From: a virus | Virus record (IMG/VR): IMGVR_UViG_3300010885_017929 | Coordinates: 1 to 33,293 of that record | Reading direction: 5' to 3' (one strand) | Length of the DNA stretch: 33,293 bases | Part shown: in pieces, positions 3,760 through 14,458 of the stretch | Numbering within the stretch: position 1 is the first letter of the stretch | Layout of the letters: each line of letters begins with the position of its first letter | Translations under genes and position numbers: made by a program | The notes under the pieces: model-generated | What the model was told of the DNA's origin: nothing | Database searches by the model: none | What the model saw: the letters and a program-made list of their open reading frames with translations, nothing else

Positions 3760-5950
3760 TTACTACAAAGATGTTTTCACTAAAGAAAACTCAGAATTAT
3801 CAATCGAAAATTATATTGGGTTTATAACTCATGGAGCAAATCAAGATCTTGTTTTAAATGCAAGAGCTGAAAGACAAAAGGGAAATTTAGAAGAGTATAA
3901 AAAACTTAAATCTAAATCGAGTGCAATAACTGGAAGTTGTGTATTTCATTCAGGAAAAGATAAAATAGCTACAAACATAAAAGAGCTAAACGGTTTAATT
4001 GTAATTGATATTGATGAAGAAATAAGCGAACAACAATACCATAATATTAAAAATGATAAATACACTTTTATTATTCATCGTTCATTTAGTGGTTTTGGAT
4101 GGTGTGTATTCGTAAAGATTAACTCAGATAAATTTGAAGATTCATTTAATGGTTTGTCAGAATACTATTTTAATACTTTTGATGTTACAATAGATCAAAG
4201 TTGTAAAAATCAAAACAGATTGAGATATATTTCTTTTGATCCTGATTTATTTCAAAATTTAAAATCAAATAAATTTATTGCTAAAAACACAAAGAAATTT
4301 ATAGAGCCAAAAAATATAAATTTTGTTTATGTTGAAGATGACTTTCAAAATATTTTACAACAAATAAAAGATAGATCAATTGATTTATGCAATGAAGATT
4401 ATGTAAAATATGTTCGTATTGGAATGTCTTTAGCATCTAAGTTTGGTTTACACGGTGCTGAGTACTTTCATTTTATTTGTTCATACGGTGGAAAGTATAA
4501 TGAAAAAAGAGCCGAAAAAGATTATCAAGGTTTTTGTAGAAATCAATCCAAAATTTCAATAGGTACTTTTTACTTCTATTGTAAAGAACATGGTATATTT
4601 ATTTATTCAGAACGTACTAAAAAAATAATTGATAGAGTATCAATAGCAAAAGTACAAGGTACTCCAATATTAGATTCAATCGTTTCTAATTTAAAAACTG
4701 CGAATGAAATAGAAGCTACTGAAAATGATAAAAAACTTATTCAGGAATTAATTAATTCAAAAATAGATTTTTCAAAAGAAGCTAATTCTAATTTAACAGA
4801 AATTGAACAAATAGAAAAATTCATTATAGATAACTTCAATCCTAAAATTGATGTAATTACAAATATTACTTATATTTTAGATAACGTACATTTAACAGAT
4901 ACTGAAATAAACGATATTTATTTAAGTGCTAAAAAGAATTTAGAATTTAATATATCAAAAGACGATATTCGTTCTGTAATAAATTCAAATCGTATTACTA
5001 AGATAAATATACTTAAAGAGTTTTTAAATGAAAATAAAGGTACTGAAACTGGCTTTATAGAAGAGTATGCTAATTGTGTTTATCCTCAAAATGAATTTAA
5101 TTTATGGGCTTTTAAAAAATGGATAGTTGGAGCTTTACACAATTGGACCGCTCAAAAAGAAGAAAAATTAGTTTGTCCTTTAACTTTAGTTTTAACTGGT
5201 CAACAACATGGAACTGGAAAAACTTCTTTCCTTCGTAATATAATGCCTAACGAGTTAGATAAATATTTAGTTGAGGGTAAAATTAACGGAGCTGACAAAG
5301 ACAGTACATACACTTTATGTAATTCTTTAATGGTTTTAGATGATGAATTCGGGGGTAAGGCTTTTAAAGATGTTAAAGAATATAAATCTATTTCAGATAT
5401 TAATATCGTTACACAAAGAAGACCATACGAAAGAGAATCAAAAACATTTAAAAGACGTGCGATTCTTTGTGGTACAACAAACGAAATAGACATTTTAAAG
5501 GATGTTACAGGTAATCGTAGAATATTGCCTATAAACGTCGAAAAAATAGATTATGATAGAATGTTACTAATAGATAAGAAAAAGTTAATCATAGAAGCCT
5601 ATAATCTATTAAACGATGGTTTTGATTGGATAATAAGAAAGGAAGAAGATATTGAATATCTAAAATTAAATTCTGAATCAAATGAAAATGTTTATCCAAT
5701 TGAAGAAATATTTTTTAATCATTTCAAATTTGAAGCCGAAGGAAATTATACTTTTGAAAGAATTTTAAATCAAGGTGAGATTTTAGAACACTTAAATCAA
5801 GTCTCAATTATGAAACCAACTAAGTATGATCTAAAAGAAATTTTTACTAAAAATAAAATAACCTATCAAGCTTATAGAATAATGGGAAATATTAAAAAAG
5901 GTGTTAAGTTGTTCTGTCATAATGGATTAGATAAAGAAATGCCCTTTTAA
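3749..5950 (+). CDS. replicative primase-helicase (BT4734/PriCT-2/VirE type)
   Basis: The 733-aa protein looks like the main replication enzyme. The N-terminal 170 residues match the BT4734/VirE-N primase-related domain of Bacteroidota (GLIVIDIDEE, HRSFSGFGWCVFV, CKNQNRLRYIS). A PriCT-2-like segment follows at about 200-285 (YVKYVRIGMSLASKFG to GTFYFYCKEHG). The C-terminal half is a VirE/D5-like P-loop helicase with Walker A GQQHGTGKTS near 484-493, Walker B LMVLDDEFGG near 528, a CGTTNE sensor, and TGNRRILPI. It would prime and unwind DNA at the origin. The candidate iteron region follows directly, as origins often lie beside their replication gene. Confidence 0.88.
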   Translation: MKFSYYKDVFTKENSELSIENYIGFITHGANQDLVLNARAERQKGNLEEYKKLKSKSSAITGSCVFHSGKDKIATNIKELNGLIVIDIDEEISEQQYHNIKNDKYTFIIHRSFSGFGWCVFVKINSDKFEDSFNGLSEYYFNTFDVTIDQSCKNQNRLRYISFDPDLFQNLKSNKFIAKNTKKFIEPKNINFVYVEDDFQNILQQIKDRSIDLCNEDYVKYVRIGMSLASKFGLHGAEYFHFICSYGGKYNEKRAEKDYQGFCRNQSKISIGTFYFYCKEHGIFIYSERTKKIIDRVSIAKVQGTPILDSIVSNLKTANEIEATENDKKLIQELINSKIDFSKEANSNLTEIEQIEKFIIDNFNPKIDVITNITYILDNVHLTDTEINDIYLSAKKNLEFNISKDDIRSVINSNRITKINILKEFLNENKGTETGFIEEYANCVYPQNEFNLWAFKKWIVGALHNWTAQKEEKLVCPLTLVLTGQQHGTGKTSFLRNIMPNELDKYLVEGKINGADKDSTYTLCNSLMVLDDEFGGKAFKDVKEYKSISDINIVTQRRPYERESKTFKRRAILCGTTNEIDILKDVTGNRRILPINVEKIDYDRMLLIDKKKLIIEAYNLLNDGFDWIIRKEEDIEYLKLNSESNENVYPIEEIFFNHFKFEAEGNYTFERILNQGEILEHLNQVSIMKPTKYDLKEIFTKNKITYQAYRIMGNIKKGVKLFCHNGLDKEMPF

Positions 5951-9926: not shown

Positions 9927-10898
9927 ATGGCATATTTAAGACTTCAAGATTATTATCAATTGAGGATTCAGAAAACTCAATTAGACCAAATAATACAAAA
10001 TAATGATGTTGTAAGGGTTTCGAGTGAATTGGAATCTTTAGCGGAAATGGTATCTTTTTTAACTCAAAAATACGACGTAGAGGATGAGTTTAGAGATATA
10101 AAATCTTATGCTTACGGTCAAACATACAACGCAAACGATTTAATTGAATTAGACGCTCCGTTATACGTTGCGACAAATACATATACGCTACATTCCAAAA
10201 CATTATACAATTCAAACGTTTATGTTTGTACAACTGCAATAACAACACCTGAAGCGTTTAATTCAGCTCATTGGAAATTGGTAGGTTCGCAATATGATTT
10301 ATTCAATGTTGTTTCACCTTATACTAGATATTCATTTAAAACTACTTATGTAGTTGGTGACTTTGTTGTTTATAAAAACAAACTATACAAGTGTTTAGTA
10401 AGCAATATAAACATTATGCCTACAGATGCTAATTTAGGTTTTAAATATTGGAGTCTTGGAGTTAATTATTCGGTTACTGGTGTAGAACCTTACAATGTTG
10501 TTTCAGACTTTTCATCGTGGAATAATTCAACTACTTATTCAGTAGGTAGTTTAGTTTCTTACAATGGAATAGTTTATTACTGTAATGGATCAAATATCAA
10601 TCATTCACCGCTAGGAAATATTACTTATTGGTTACCTGTAACGTGGAAACATTCAGATAATAGGTCTATTCAATTGGTAGCTTTTTTAATTGATATGGTA
10701 ATCTATAAAATCAATATGAGAATAGCACCTAATAATATTCCACAACTTCGCAAAGACAATTATAATTATGCGAAAGAATGGTTAATCGAAGCAGGAGGCC
10801 AAAATAACGCTATTACGGCAAACATTCCATTATTACAACCAAAACAAGGTGGGCGTATTCGTCACGGTGGAAATACTAAAAACATTAATACATACTAA
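9927..10898 (+). CDS. gp36/DUF1320-like head-tail protein with inserted carbohydrate-binding-like modules
   Basis: The N-terminal 60 residues (MAYLRLQDYYQ...) and the C-terminal 80 (IDMVIYKINMRIAPNNIPQLRKDNY, then AKEWLIEAGG) look like the two halves of a Mu gp36/DUF1320-type connector. Between them, at about residues 65-245, are three copies of a module with the pattern tY-x2-G-d-x-V-x-y-x3-lY-x-C then W. It resembles CBM5/12 chitin-binding domains (TTYSVGSLVSYNGIVYYC is the clearest). The modules may display binding surfaces on the virion. The gp36 assignment is tentative and the repeat pattern is clear. The gene lies between TerL and portal. Confidence 0.6.
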   Translation: MAYLRLQDYYQLRIQKTQLDQIIQNNDVVRVSSELESLAEMVSFLTQKYDVEDEFRDIKSYAYGQTYNANDLIELDAPLYVATNTYTLHSKTLYNSNVYVCTTAITTPEAFNSAHWKLVGSQYDLFNVVSPYTRYSFKTTYVVGDFVVYKNKLYKCLVSNINIMPTDANLGFKYWSLGVNYSVTGVEPYNVVSDFSSWNNSTTYSVGSLVSYNGIVYYCNGSNINHSPLGNITYWLPVTWKHSDNRSIQLVAFLIDMVIYKINMRIAPNNIPQLRKDNYNYAKEWLIEAGGQNNAITANIPLLQPKQGGRIRHGGNTKNINTY

Positions 10899-12217
10899 TG
10901 AAGTCACCAAAAATATTAACTAAGAATTATTGGTTTCCAACGATAAATCCGTTGACAGATGCGGGTCAAGGTGTAAATCGTGAAACAAATCCACAACACG
11001 TTAGTAGATACATTGCGAGGGTTCAATTAGCTCGTATTCGTCAAGACGTTAAGAGTTGGAGAGATGCGATTAATGAAGCTGAATTAGCATACTATCCCCA
11101 CAGGGTGCAAATGCAAAGATTGTTTAATGATACCAGTTTAAACGGTCACGTTTTCGCTTGTATGGAAAAAAGAAAGTCATTAACTAAACAAAAACGTTTT
11201 GAAATAGTAAACGAAAAAGGAATAGTGGATGAATTTTGGACTGAAAAATTAAATAAAAAATGGTTACATACCGTAATAAACTATTCATTAGATGCTTTGT
11301 TTTATGGTTATAATTTAGTTAACTATTCAGAGATTGAAAACGATGAGTTAAAGGGTATTGAGGTAATAAAAAGACATAATATTTCACCTGACAGATTACA
11401 AGTTGTTTCTTATGTTTATTCATTGAGTGGTATTCAATTTGAAACAGATGAACAATTTAAAAACTGGGTTTTTTACATTTCTACATCCTCCGAAACGGGT
11501 ATTTCCAATTGTGGTTATGGTTTGCTTTATCGTTGTGGAATTTATGAAATATTTTTACGAAATTTATTAGGATATAACGGGGACTTTGTAGAATTATTTT
11601 CACAACCTTTTAGAGTTGGTAAAACACAAAAAACAAATGATGATGATAGGTCGGAGTTTGAGAGTGCTATTCGTGATATGGGTTCTAGTGGTTACGCTAT
11701 TATTGATCCAAATGATGAGATTGATTTTATTGAAGCGAAAAATTCGGGTAACGGGTTTATGGGATATGAAAACCTTGAAAAACGTTGTGAAGCTAAAATT
11801 TCAAAAATAATCTTAGGACATGCAGACGCTATCGATTCAACTACTGGAAAATTAGGTTCAAATGATGAGGTTAAAGAAGCCTTAGAAACAATTGAAAAAA
11901 ACGATGGTAATTTCATTATGAATGTTATCAATGATGAGGTATTACCAAAATTAAGAAATCAAGGTATTGCAATTCCTGACAATTTACGTTTTACATTCTG
12001 TAACGATAAAGAAAAATTTGAAGAAGAAGAAAAAGCGAATAAGCGAAACAACGAAGTAATAACAAACGTTAAAACTTTATTCGATGCGGGTTACAAAGTT
12101 GACGCTTCACAAATTGAGGAATTAACAGGATTGAAAATTACTGAAATCGAACCAAGCGAAAAAGGATTGCCACAAGACGTACAAAATAAATTGAAAGACC
12201 TATACAATGGTATTTGA
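10898..12217 (+). CDS. portal protein, Mu gp29/DUF935-like
   Basis: The protein forms the ring at the capsid vertex through which DNA enters and to which the tail attaches. The 439-aa sequence follows the DUF935 pattern: an N-terminal FPTINPLTDAG region, HVFACMEKRKSLTKQKRFEI, SLDALFYGYNLVNY, KRHNISPDR and NLLGYNGDFVELFSQPFRVG. A later stretch includes SKIILGHADAIDSTTGKLGSNDEVKEA. Length and position between the connector-like gene and the MuF gene agree. It overlaps the MuF start by 11 nt, as in Mu-type head operons. Confidence 0.87.
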   Translation: MKSPKILTKNYWFPTINPLTDAGQGVNRETNPQHVSRYIARVQLARIRQDVKSWRDAINEAELAYYPHRVQMQRLFNDTSLNGHVFACMEKRKSLTKQKRFEIVNEKGIVDEFWTEKLNKKWLHTVINYSLDALFYGYNLVNYSEIENDELKGIEVIKRHNISPDRLQVVSYVYSLSGIQFETDEQFKNWVFYISTSSETGISNCGYGLLYRCGIYEIFLRNLLGYNGDFVELFSQPFRVGKTQKTNDDDRSEFESAIRDMGSSGYAIIDPNDEIDFIEAKNSGNGFMGYENLEKRCEAKISKIILGHADAIDSTTGKLGSNDEVKEALETIEKNDGNFIMNVINDEVLPKLRNQGIAIPDNLRFTFCNDKEKFEEEEKANKRNNEVITNVKTLFDAGYKVDASQIEELTGLKITEIEPSEKGLPQDVQNKLKDLYNGI

Positions 12218-13994
12218 TGACTACGACAAAGAACGTTTATTTGAAATGATTTATGCGGGTTTAGTTACTGCAAAGAAACTGCCTAAACAATTGTTTCAAT
12301 TAACATTTAAAGAGTTATTAAAAGGAATGGAAACGGCTATTAATTACGATGTCGTAGATAAAAAACTAGTAGCTGATTTAACACAAAACTTATATTTATT
12401 TAGTGGTGCAAAAACAGAAGTTCAAGTACTCGACATGGTTGGCTCAATGGTTAAGGATGGAAAATTACTACCTTATAACGAATTTAAAAAGATAGCTGAC
12501 GAGAAATTTACAGAATACAATAAAAACTATTTAAGAACTGAATACGACACAGCAGTAGGACAGTCCCAAATGGTTAGCGACTGGAGTGATATACATAAGG
12601 ATAAAAAACTATTTCCATATCTTAAATACGATGCTATTTTAGACAGTAAAACAAGTGATATTTGTAAACACTTTGACGGTGTAACATTGCCTGTAGATGA
12701 TAAATTCTGGTCTCAATATTCACCCTTGAATCATTTTAACTGTTTCACTCCTGATACTCCTATACTTACACCAAATGGATGGGTAAATATAGAAGACATC
12801 AAAAAAGGTGATTTAGTTATTGGTGGAAGTGGTAAAACTCAAAATGTTTTGGGAGTTCACATTAAAAGTATTTATGAAGAAATTTTGAATATTAGAATCA
12901 AAAACAATTCCATTTCTACGACCAAAAAACATCGTTTCTTGTCCATTAATGGGTGGAAGAAAGCTGAAAGTTTCAATGTTGGTGATATAATTGTACAAAA
13001 CATCGAAACAACCTTTTTTAATAAAGCTATTTGTACAATAAATAACTTTTACGTTGTTTTGAGTTATTTGTGTATGCCTATCATAAGAAAGTGGAAAACG
13101 AGAACTATTAACACATTCAATTGCTATATTAATACTTGGAATAAAAATATCAACAAATCTATTATTGACAAGTTCGTTTCCAATACAAGTCAAACCTTTA
13201 TCAATAAAATAATCAAAAAGTTTTTGTTCGTTATTAGTAAGTTTTTTATGATATTGTCCATACCTTTTTGGATTGTTATTATATGTTTCAATAGTCTTTT
13301 TATTCGCTTTTTCTCTAATTTTAATATTGAACATCGGGTTAAATTCTTTCATTCTTTTAAAAGCATCAGGTCTTTTTTTGCCTTTCATTGGATGAGGAAT
13401 TGTTTTAAGAGTTTTAATAAGTCTTTCTCCAGTTTTAACTTTTCTAATATTGTTATTAATCCATTGAGTTTTTATAGCTTCGCTACCAACACGACAAACA
13501 AACCCCTCATTTTTAAACCAAGTTCGTATGGTAGTGGCGTTAACGCCCCATCGAACCCCGATAGTTCTAAAAGTCATCATTCTGTCGAAGTAGAGAGTTT
13601 GGAGGGATTCACGAAAGGACAACCCCTCGATAGATTCAATTCTTTGTTTAGTTTCTTTTTTCATAGTTTTTTTAATCGTAAATTTGTTTTAATAAAAAAT
13701 ATTAGTAAAAATAATTATTCAGGACAAATATACAACTTATCAGTGAATAATGACGAAAGTTACATTACAAATGTAGGTGTTGTTCATAACTGCAGATGTG
13801 AGATAATTAAATTAAGTGAATACGATGAATTTGATATTACTAAAGAAAAAAATGTTAAATTAGCAGAAAAGAAAGGCGGTGACAATATGAATGATATATT
13901 TAAAATGAACCCTTACAATGATAGGGTAATATTTTCAGAAAAACATCCATATTTTGAACAAGCTAAAAACTATAAAAAACAATTTGTAAAATGA
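12207..13994 (+). CDS. MuF-type head morphogenesis protein containing an intein
   Basis: The extein is a Mu gpF-like minor head protein that acts with the portal in capsid assembly. Residues 1-178 hold the conserved core (YLRTEYDTAVGQSQM, DAILDSKTSDICKHFDG, FWSQYSPLNHFN), and residues 529-595 resume with CRCEIIKL. The motif HFNCRCE is split by an intein of 350 residues (179-528). Splicing would give 245 aa, a normal small MuF size. The intein has Cys1, a block A-like start (CFTPDTPILTPNGW), TTKKHRF with the TxxH of block B, and the ending NVGVVHN before Cys+1. Its middle is the complement of an antisense endonuclease gene. The ORF is open throughout. Confidence 0.9.
   Translation: MVFDDYDKERLFEMIYAGLVTAKKLPKQLFQLTFKELLKGMETAINYDVVDKKLVADLTQNLYLFSGAKTEVQVLDMVGSMVKDGKLLPYNEFKKIADEKFTEYNKNYLRTEYDTAVGQSQMVSDWSDIHKDKKLFPYLKYDAILDSKTSDICKHFDGVTLPVDDKFWSQYSPLNHFNCFTPDTPILTPNGWVNIEDIKKGDLVIGGSGKTQNVLGVHIKSIYEEILNIRIKNNSISTTKKHRFLSINGWKKAESFNVGDIIVQNIETTFFNKAICTINNFYVVLSYLCMPIIRKWKTRTINTFNCYINTWNKNINKSIIDKFVSNTSQTFINKIIKKFLFVISKFFMILSIPFWIVIICFNSLFIRFFSNFNIEHRVKFFHSFKSIRSFFAFHWMRNCFKSFNKSFSSFNFSNIVINPLSFYSFATNTTNKPLIFKPSSYGSGVNAPSNPDSSKSHHSVEVESLEGFTKGQPLDRFNSLFSFFFHSFFNRKFVLIKNISKNNYSGQIYNLSVNNDESYITNVGVVHNCRCEIIKLSEYDEFDITKEKNVKLAEKKGGDNMNDIFKMNPYNDRVIFSEKHPYFEQAKNYKKQFVK
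12741..13790 (+). mobile_element. intein with antisense homing endonuclease gene
   Basis: The element spans Cys1 (12741-12743) to the terminal Asn (13788-13790) and is followed by Cys+1. The N-terminal Hint half lies at about 12741-13010 and the C-terminal half (NYSGQIYNLSVNNDESYIT to VVHN) at about 13690-13790. All class 1 splicing residues are present: Cys1, block B Thr and His, penultimate His, Asn and Cys+1. Instead of an in-frame endonuclease domain, the middle carries a gene on the other strand (12813-13664). The sense frame has no stop over this stretch, so one long precursor could be made and spliced. Confidence 0.9.
12813..13664 (-). CDS. homing endonuclease, PD-(D/E)xK/Vsr-like, antisense inside the intein
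   Basis: The 283-aa protein would cut intein-less MuF alleles and so spread the intein. An N-terminal helix-turn-helix (TFRTIGVRWGVNATTIRTWF, about 32-51) and a NUMOD3-like segment (HPMKGKKRPDAFKRMKEFNP, about 92-111) are typical DNA-binding parts of homing enzymes. The nuclease part is FVDIFIPSINIAIECVN followed by SYDRH, a PD-(D/E)xK pattern like the Vsr-related EDxHD family. The usual ExK lysine is not evident. Residues 231-283 lie antisense to the Hint coding region. All 13 Leu and 14 Ser codons avoid TTA, CTA and TCA. The family assignment is from motifs only. Confidence 0.85.
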   Translation of the reverse strand: MKKETKQRIESIEGLSFRESLQTLYFDRMMTFRTIGVRWGVNATTIRTWFKNEGFVCRVGSEAIKTQWINNNIRKVKTGERLIKTLKTIPHPMKGKKRPDAFKRMKEFNPMFNIKIREKANKKTIETYNNNPKRYGQYHKKLTNNEQKLFDYFIDKGLTCIGNELVNNRFVDIFIPSINIAIECVNSSRFPLSYDRHTQITQNNVKVIYCTNSFIKKGCFDVLYNYITNIETFSFLPPINGQETMFFGRRNGIVFDSNIQNFFINTFNVNSQNILSFTTSTNN

Positions 13995-14458
13995 AACAAC
14001 CATTAATTAGTAATAAATTCGTATTTGAATTAGAGCAAAGAATACAAGGAGAATTATCAGCAGAATCTATGTATAGACAATTGTCAGCGTCTATGCAAAA
14101 TTTAGGCTACTTTGGAGCTTCTAAGTTTTTTTTAAAAGAAGCGGACCAGGAAGTTAAACACTATCAAAAAATTGTTGATTTTTGCAATGATTTAGGGGTA
14201 CTTCCTGAAATATCAAATACATTGACAGATTTAAAAGTTGATAGTTTAGAATTAGCTTTAAAAACGGCGTACGATGCTGAATTAAATCTATTAAATGAAT
14301 ACAAAAAACTATCTAATTTATCAATGGAAGAACCTACACTATTTTATTTTAGTTTAGAATTTGTAAAAGAACAAGTTAAAAGCGTTGGTGAATATGGAGA
14401 TTTATTAGCACGTTTGGAACTTACAAAAGAACCTATTTTATTAGATAAAGAATTATGA
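13991..14458 (+). CDS. ferritin
   Basis: The 155-aa sequence aligns by eye along its whole length with bacterial ferritins such as FtnA. Shared segments are GELSAESMYRQLSA (Glu21, Tyr28), ADQEVKHYQKIVDF (ExxH, Glu54 and His57), AYDAELNLLNEYKKL (Glu97), FVKEQVKS (Glu127, Gln128) and the terminal LDKEL. These correspond to the diiron ferroxidase ligands; one further acidic ligand (FtnA Glu130) is replaced by Ser131. Ferritins form 24-mer shells that oxidise and store iron. The gene sits between the MuF and gpG-like genes with a 4-nt overlap on each side, so it is made with virion proteins. Whether it is packaged, structural or acts in the infected cell is not known. Confidence 0.85.
   Translation: MKQPLISNKFVFELEQRIQGELSAESMYRQLSASMQNLGYFGASKFFLKEADQEVKHYQKIVDFCNDLGVLPEISNTLTDLKVDSLELALKTAYDAELNLLNEYKKLSNLSMEEPTLFYFSLEFVKEQVKSVGEYGDLLARLELTKEPILLDKEL

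Follow-up and report, generated by a model that had tools for sequence, protein, structure and literature searches.

We analysed a 33,293-nucleotide (nt) stretch of viral DNA (IMG/VR record IMGVR_UViG_3300010885_017929, hereafter the window), in which the gene for a MuF head protein contains an intein that has a homing-endonuclease-like gene on its opposite strand (Table 1). The sense strand holds one continuous open reading frame (ORF) of 595 codons with matches to Phage_Mu_F (PF04233, E 1.2e-10), Intein_splicing (PF14890, E 4.5e-11) and Hint_2 (PF13403), all exceeding the curated Pfam cut-offs. The insert begins with a Cys1 residue (CFTPDT, at 12741) that is common to all loci compared here, contains the block B motif T-x-x-H as TTKKHRF, with Thr and His invariant across these loci, and terminates in VVHN immediately before Cys+1, the relatives likewise having HN followed by Cys. 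When the intein is removed, the remaining 245 residues align without gaps across the junction, at P-x-x-x-x-C-R-C, with five intein-less MuF proteins, and empty-site proteins that match across PLNHFN/CRC occur in Winogradskyella, Flavobacterium and Elizabethkingia phages. A previous reading of the sequence alone had proposed that a complete class 1 Hint domain splits a MuF protein; domain matches, motifs and junction alignment now confirm the insert as a class 1 intein, and splicing is predicted. A group I intron was rejected, since Rfam gave no match to a self-splicing RNA and the junction is precise in the protein sequence.

The same reading had placed a 283-codon minus-strand gene in the middle of the intein, in codon register with an open sense frame, and the ORF coordinates agree on each of these points. 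The final ~66 codons of the antisense gene overlap the N-terminal Hint domain. In this register sense stops arise only opposite TTA, CTA and TCA, all of which have synonyms, so that selection could remove every one of them. Among the 13 Leu and 14 Ser codons of the antisense gene none of these three triplets occurs, as had been noticed at the outset, whereas TTA and CTA make up 76% of Leu codons and TCA 37% of Ser codons phage-wide; under the phage's own codon usage, the chance of this absence is ~1e-11. The longest codon-aligned antisense-open run spans 291 codons here, compared with a maximum of 66 in the 25 other genes of the window. On the strength of these and the following sequence comparisons, we consider it very probable that the locus represents a mobile class 1 MuF intein with a Vsr/EDxHD-fold homing endonuclease encoded codon over codon on the opposite strand. 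One DNA stretch would thus have a different duty on each strand, as a protein-coding gene and as an open frame to be translated and cut out.

A search of IMG/VR with a MuF alignment yielded 420 relatives. Among the best 80, which were fetched, nearly all are empty at the site and three have an intein at exactly the window position. Two of these (L015 and L057) carry mini-inteins of 130 and 133 residues without a nuclease, while in the third (L032) the intein measures 350 residues and harbours an antisense gene homologous to that of the window, the nucleases being 52-53% identical. A search with the nuclease alignment added two viral contigs (L096 and L098), an Ignavibacteriota metagenome-assembled genome (L103) and Flavobacteriaceae Ap0902 (L104), and a search with the Hint alignment added L124, which IMG records as an isolate prophage, L125 and part of another locus, L128. 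The arrangement is therefore present in seven loci (the window, L032, L096, L098, L103, L124 and L125) and partly in L128, where an antisense-nuclease MuF intein (4001-4511) at a contig end has a frame break in the N-terminal Hint segment that may be a sequencing error. All seven have an uninterrupted sense frame of 595-1041 codons facing the nuclease gene, share an identical register and retain the Hint catalytic residues; the Hint halves and the antisense gene are thus conserved together. Nuclease identity among these loci is 24-52% where measured and GC content of the core is 30-57%, with the highest value in L124, indicating that low GC is not the cause of the arrangement.

Other searches were largely negative. 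A single-protein nuclease scan of viral contigs gave no match, and tblastn with the nuclease in phage records gave only a weak match to an HCTV-5 HNH protein, to which a loose E value added doubtful Vibrio helicase fragments. In 296 and 395 genomes around the L104 host, at the level of family and phylum respectively, we found beyond L104 only cellular DUF559-like nuclease domains, so that sequenced genomes rarely contain the element. L002, the sole locus from a single-sequence scan with the MuF N-terminus, was rejected as spurious. Inteins of S16, PM2 and Campylobacter phages with an overlapping 'hypothetical protein' were also rejected, as their neighbours proved to lie on the same strand with short overlaps and are not antisense genes.

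We then compared the core, the stretch between the Hint blocks (213-228 codons per locus), with expectations from the codon usage of neighbouring genes. Each of the seven cores has 10-19 Leu and 9-14 Ser codons and no sense-stop codon, against expected numbers of 10.8 in the window, 6.6 in L032, 8.6 in L096, 6.7 in L098, 11.0 in L103, 1.8 in L124 and 10.9 in L125; the six AT-rich loci thus each show none where 6.6-11 are expected. Omitting L125 as the sister of L103, and treating lineages as independent since their split, the combined P over six lineages is ~1e-20. The avoidance of TTA, CTA and TCA therefore extends to all seven loci. In L104, a distant relative with 28% nuclease identity, the antisense nuclease is intact and the sense frame is interrupted, and here the gene contains 12 TTA, one CTA and two TCA codons. 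These 15 codons indicate that nothing in the protein as such excludes the triplets in question; the condition under which the original reading was to be refuted, their absence also from homologues placed otherwise, thus does not hold. The seven homologous loci, set beside the broken L104, offer a clean natural experiment on the constraint of overlapping genes, in which the broken locus has been refilled with exactly those codons that the others avoid.

These data bear on the possibility that the sense frame is open merely by descent or chance, with a non-splicing intein and a MuF protein that is dead or made in two pieces. L104 lends this some support, as its ~15 sense stops lie between separate ORFs for the N- and C-terminal halves. 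Drift at the divergence seen here would, however, have filled the other seven loci with stops as it did L104, yet they have none, and their Hint catalytic residues and C-exteins are intact. We regard such a non-splicing locus as improbable.

The position of substitutions further distinguishes the two coding strands. Between L103 and L125, the cores differ at sense positions 1, 2 and 3 in 51, 11 and 15 cases (P 6e-9), the excess falling on the antisense third position. Hint segments outside the overlap show an ordinary sense position-3 bias, and in the N-terminal Hint overlap sense positions 1 and 3 differ 7 and 9 times and position 2 once. The accumulation at antisense wobble positions indicates that selection on the core acts on the antisense protein, the sense frame being simply kept free of stops, while the Hint segments are sense genes. 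As judged from these substitutions, purifying selection acts on the antisense protein, and together with the seven-locus avoidance of stops this supports the original proposal that selection keeps the precursor translatable while an independent antisense gene encodes the nuclease. The window accordingly does not carry a nuclease in frame within its intein: the gene lies on the minus strand, and core substitutions follow the antisense frame. We attach almost no credence to the view that there is no antisense gene and that the frame is open by chance or as a compositional shadow of a normal in-frame domain of the intein. Codon-aligned antisense frames are in general those most often open by chance, but other genes in the window reach no more than 66 open codons, homologues of the antisense protein extend down to 24-28% identity and its predicted fold is that of a nuclease, and a homologous nuclease persists in L104 despite the broken sense frame. 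Wobble-position substitutions and homologues already refute this view.

With six homologues, AlphaFold modelled the nuclease at a predicted local distance difference test (pLDDT) score of 67, compared with 32 from the single sequence. Structural alignment of the nuclease domain with VIA-align matched NGO0050 (Z 11.3), the catalytic domain of I-Bth0305I (3r3p, Z 10.6) and Vsr (Z 10.2-10.6). There was no sequence match in the PDB. Pfam gave MTES_1575 (4e-4) and DUF559, each in single members, and PHROG 3339, annotated as 'homing endonuclease', matched the window gene (E 1.3e-5) and was found in four of six members. The protein is thus predicted to adopt a Vsr-like PD-(D/E)XK fold of the Vsr/I-Bth0305I (EDxHD) type, with E146, D172, E183 and H197 as plausible catalytic equivalents in a model of pLDDT 67. 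The motif D-I/V-F/Y-x-P...I-E-C that surrounds Asp172 is preserved in the window, L032, L096, L098 and L124.

Comparison of inteins with their hosts pointed to mobility. The Hint domain of the window is 55% identical to that of L032 and 56% to that of L096, whereas the MuF proteins share 46% and 36%, respectively. Conversely, L015, whose MuF protein is the most closely related (69%), carries another type of intein (37%). Inteins that resemble each other more than their host proteins do, and a closest host with a different intein, are as expected of a mobile element. By analogy with other inteins, the target of the nuclease would be the codons of the conserved CRC motif.

Evidence for separate expression of the antisense gene was suggestive. 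Promoters of the Bacteroidota type have the consensus TTG-N20-TAnnTTTG. This pattern precedes the antisense ATG by 59 nt in L096, L103 and L124 and by 79 nt in L032, and occurs in 0.4-2.3% of 130-nt stretches in these loci as background (0.4% in GC-rich L124). L098 has a Shine-Dalgarno sequence, AAAGGAG, before the antisense ATG. In the window we noted a candidate -7-like box, TATATTTG, which is expected by chance in 15% of comparable stretches, the phage being AT-rich. A generic sigma-70 promoter scan performed no better on these sequences than on shuffles.

Taken together, these results are consistent with a mechanism in which the sense strand would be translated throughout, giving the N-terminal Hint segment, an open functionless linker of ~215 residues and the C-terminal Hint segment, with the Hint halves splicing the MuF protein. 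The antisense gene would be expressed separately as a nuclease that may cut empty MuF alleles at their conserved PLNHFN/CRC codons, allowing the intein to be copied in, and selection would purge every sense stop from the antisense gene. The sequences themselves show the gene arrangement and its homology, stop-free cores in seven loci, purifying selection on the antisense protein, and MuF sites that are empty or hold a mini-intein, and the nuclease fold is a prediction; splicing, antisense expression, cleavage and homing follow from these by inference.

Several points weigh against this interpretation. The seven loci descend from one arrangement and share it by ancestry, so the register counts as one event and not seven, and the codon expectations presuppose that, without this constraint, the nuclease gene would share the usage of its phage. 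The promoter consensus is absent upstream of the gene in the window, which has no complete antisense promoter, and in L098 and L125; because of these three loci, and because the pattern partly overlaps conserved Hint codons, the promoter evidence is suggestive only. In L103, L125 and L104, finally, Asn occupies the likely catalytic Asp172 column, and these members may no longer cut. The L103/L125 pair has this Asn and is nonetheless still under purifying selection on the antisense protein, which would also suit a resident passenger, such as a lysogen repressor or a MuF-silencing antisense RNA, in place of an active homing endonuclease, as would the helix-turn-helix (HTH)-like N-terminal region of the protein. 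Such a passenger seems unlikely to us, given the intact motif around Asp172 in the window and four relatives, and because the location in an intein, the patchy distribution and the pattern of mobility all fit homing.

Two relatives displayed a split organization. In L104 (3116-5524), a Flavobacteriaceae prophage, the MuF intein is divided between two ORFs that flank the antisense nuclease. This looks like a fractured or split, candidate trans-splicing intein, or else like decay; separate host ORFs flanking a nuclease gene are found in this relative only and not in the window. In L097 (3665-4885), a MuF-type intein has a related nuclease fused in frame to its N-terminal half, with a stop at 4672, and the C-terminal half restarts in another frame at an overlapping ATG, forming a same-strand split version. 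Both layouts would suit a history in which a fractured-gene, trans-splicing intein with a nuclease between its halves was ancestral and the continuous forms secondary, as would the helicase/ORF/helicase layout with overlapping ends in phages S16 and PM2. Split phage inteins with free-standing nuclease genes of the Vsr/EDxHD type between the halves of fractured genes are reported to have been described by Dassa et al. in 2009. Among antisense loci, however, continuous forms outnumber split ones by seven to one, and a stop-free codon alignment would have to have been assembled later. We therefore hold a split origin to be a minority possibility, if a less remote one than the passenger.

Enumeration of dipeptides showed that two of the five alternative registers force no stop in the host frame, namely the codon-aligned antisense register and the same-strand register with offset 2. 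In the other three, the nuclease of the window could be encoded only with a minimum of 5, 10 or 2 sense stops. A 277-residue helicase intein, L126 (4001-4831, plus strand), has an uninterrupted sense frame and a hidden Vsr-like nuclease ORF on the same strand (4143-4838) in the offset-2 register; at 18 codons where a T would stop the sense frame, C is used without exception (P 1.4e-4). Both kinds of hidden nuclease seen here thus occupy one of the two stop-free registers, which suggests a rule for where genes can hide inside others. It is conceivable, at somewhat less than even chances, that inteins can house a nuclease in either free register, which would decouple its expression from the spliced host gene (in some loci through an embedded antisense promoter) and offer a route to split inteins once the sense frame is lost, as in L104. 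The arrangement would in this way provide a path between continuous and split inteins.

In textbook inteins, the nuclease is a domain of the spliced-out protein. The present element shares with class 1 inteins that have an in-frame LAGLIDADG or HNH endonuclease the residues Cys1, TxxH, HN and Cys+1, an invariant host motif, and empty and mini-intein alleles, but differs in that the nuclease is a separate antisense gene and the sense residues between the Hint segments form only an open linker. With the fractured genes mentioned above, the closest system in terms of its parts, it reportedly has in common the type of nuclease fold, the phage setting and a separate nuclease gene between Hint halves; here, in contrast, the precursor remains a single uninterrupted ORF with the nuclease antisense to it in codon register, and L104 is the split equivalent. 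The predicted fold of nuclease residues 140-232 is shared with I-Bth0305I and Vsr, whereas sequence identity is ~10% and the N-terminal region and genomic placement are different. The closest published analogue in the open-access literature is the ShiLan element, a hidden, out-of-frame, same-strand HNH endonuclease in a phage methylase for which no splicing domain was found (PMC11855218). In both cases the gene of a homing nuclease shares DNA with an unbroken host frame in another register, but ours lies on the opposite strand, is of the EDxHD type and resides within a Hint intein. We found no description of an intein with an antisense nuclease in the open-access literature, a search outside which key subscription papers lie. 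The arrangement, initially suggested to be rare or undescribed, appears to be undescribed, and we judge that its novelty lies in the combination, as intein and nuclease families are each known. Annotation that proceeds frame by frame will label such inteins nuclease-free.

Table 1. Features of the MuF intein locus, in window coordinates.
Feature	Position	Strand	Basis
MuF head protein precursor with intein, 595 residues	12207-13994	+	Open frame; Pfam matches
N-extein, MuF residues 1-178	12207-12740	+	Alignment to empty-site MuF proteins
Class 1 intein, 350 codons, Cys1 to terminal HN (splicing predicted)	12741-13790	+	Motifs and junction reconstitution
N-terminal Hint segment (Cys1, block B TxxH)	12741-13019	+	Hint alignments; PF13403
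C-terminal Hint segment, ending in VVHN, then Cys+1	13665-13790	+	Hint alignment
C-extein from CRCE onward, with stop codon	13791-13994	+	Alignment to empty-site MuF proteins
Antisense homing-endonuclease-like gene, 283 codons	12813-13664	-	Homologues in place at six further loci and L104; PHROG 3339
Antisense-only nuclease core; in sense an open, apparently unconstrained linker of ~215 codons	13020-13664	-	Substitutions at antisense wobble positions
Nuclease C-terminal tail facing the N-terminal Hint segment	12813-13019	-	Unstructured in model, pLDDT mostly <50
Helical HTH-like region, nuclease residues 1-60	13485-13664	-	AlphaFold2 model, pLDDT ~88; Pfam HTH_23 matched weakly in two of six members
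Predicted Vsr/EDxHD-type nuclease domain, residues 140-232	12969-13247	-	Structural matches; Pfam MTES_1575 in one member
TATATTTG, Bacteroidota -7-like box, candidate only	13725-13732	-	Pattern scan; 68 nt upstream of the antisense ATG

Two neighbouring genes were also noted. Just upstream of the portal gene, positions 9927-10898 encode a protein with two CBM_5_12 carbohydrate-binding stretches and weak matches to tail-fibre PHROGs. A ferritin-like gene (13991-14458; PF00210, 2.4e-16), missing from the corresponding position after MuF in L015, lies directly downstream of MuF in the window, within the head operon of a contractile-tailed phage.
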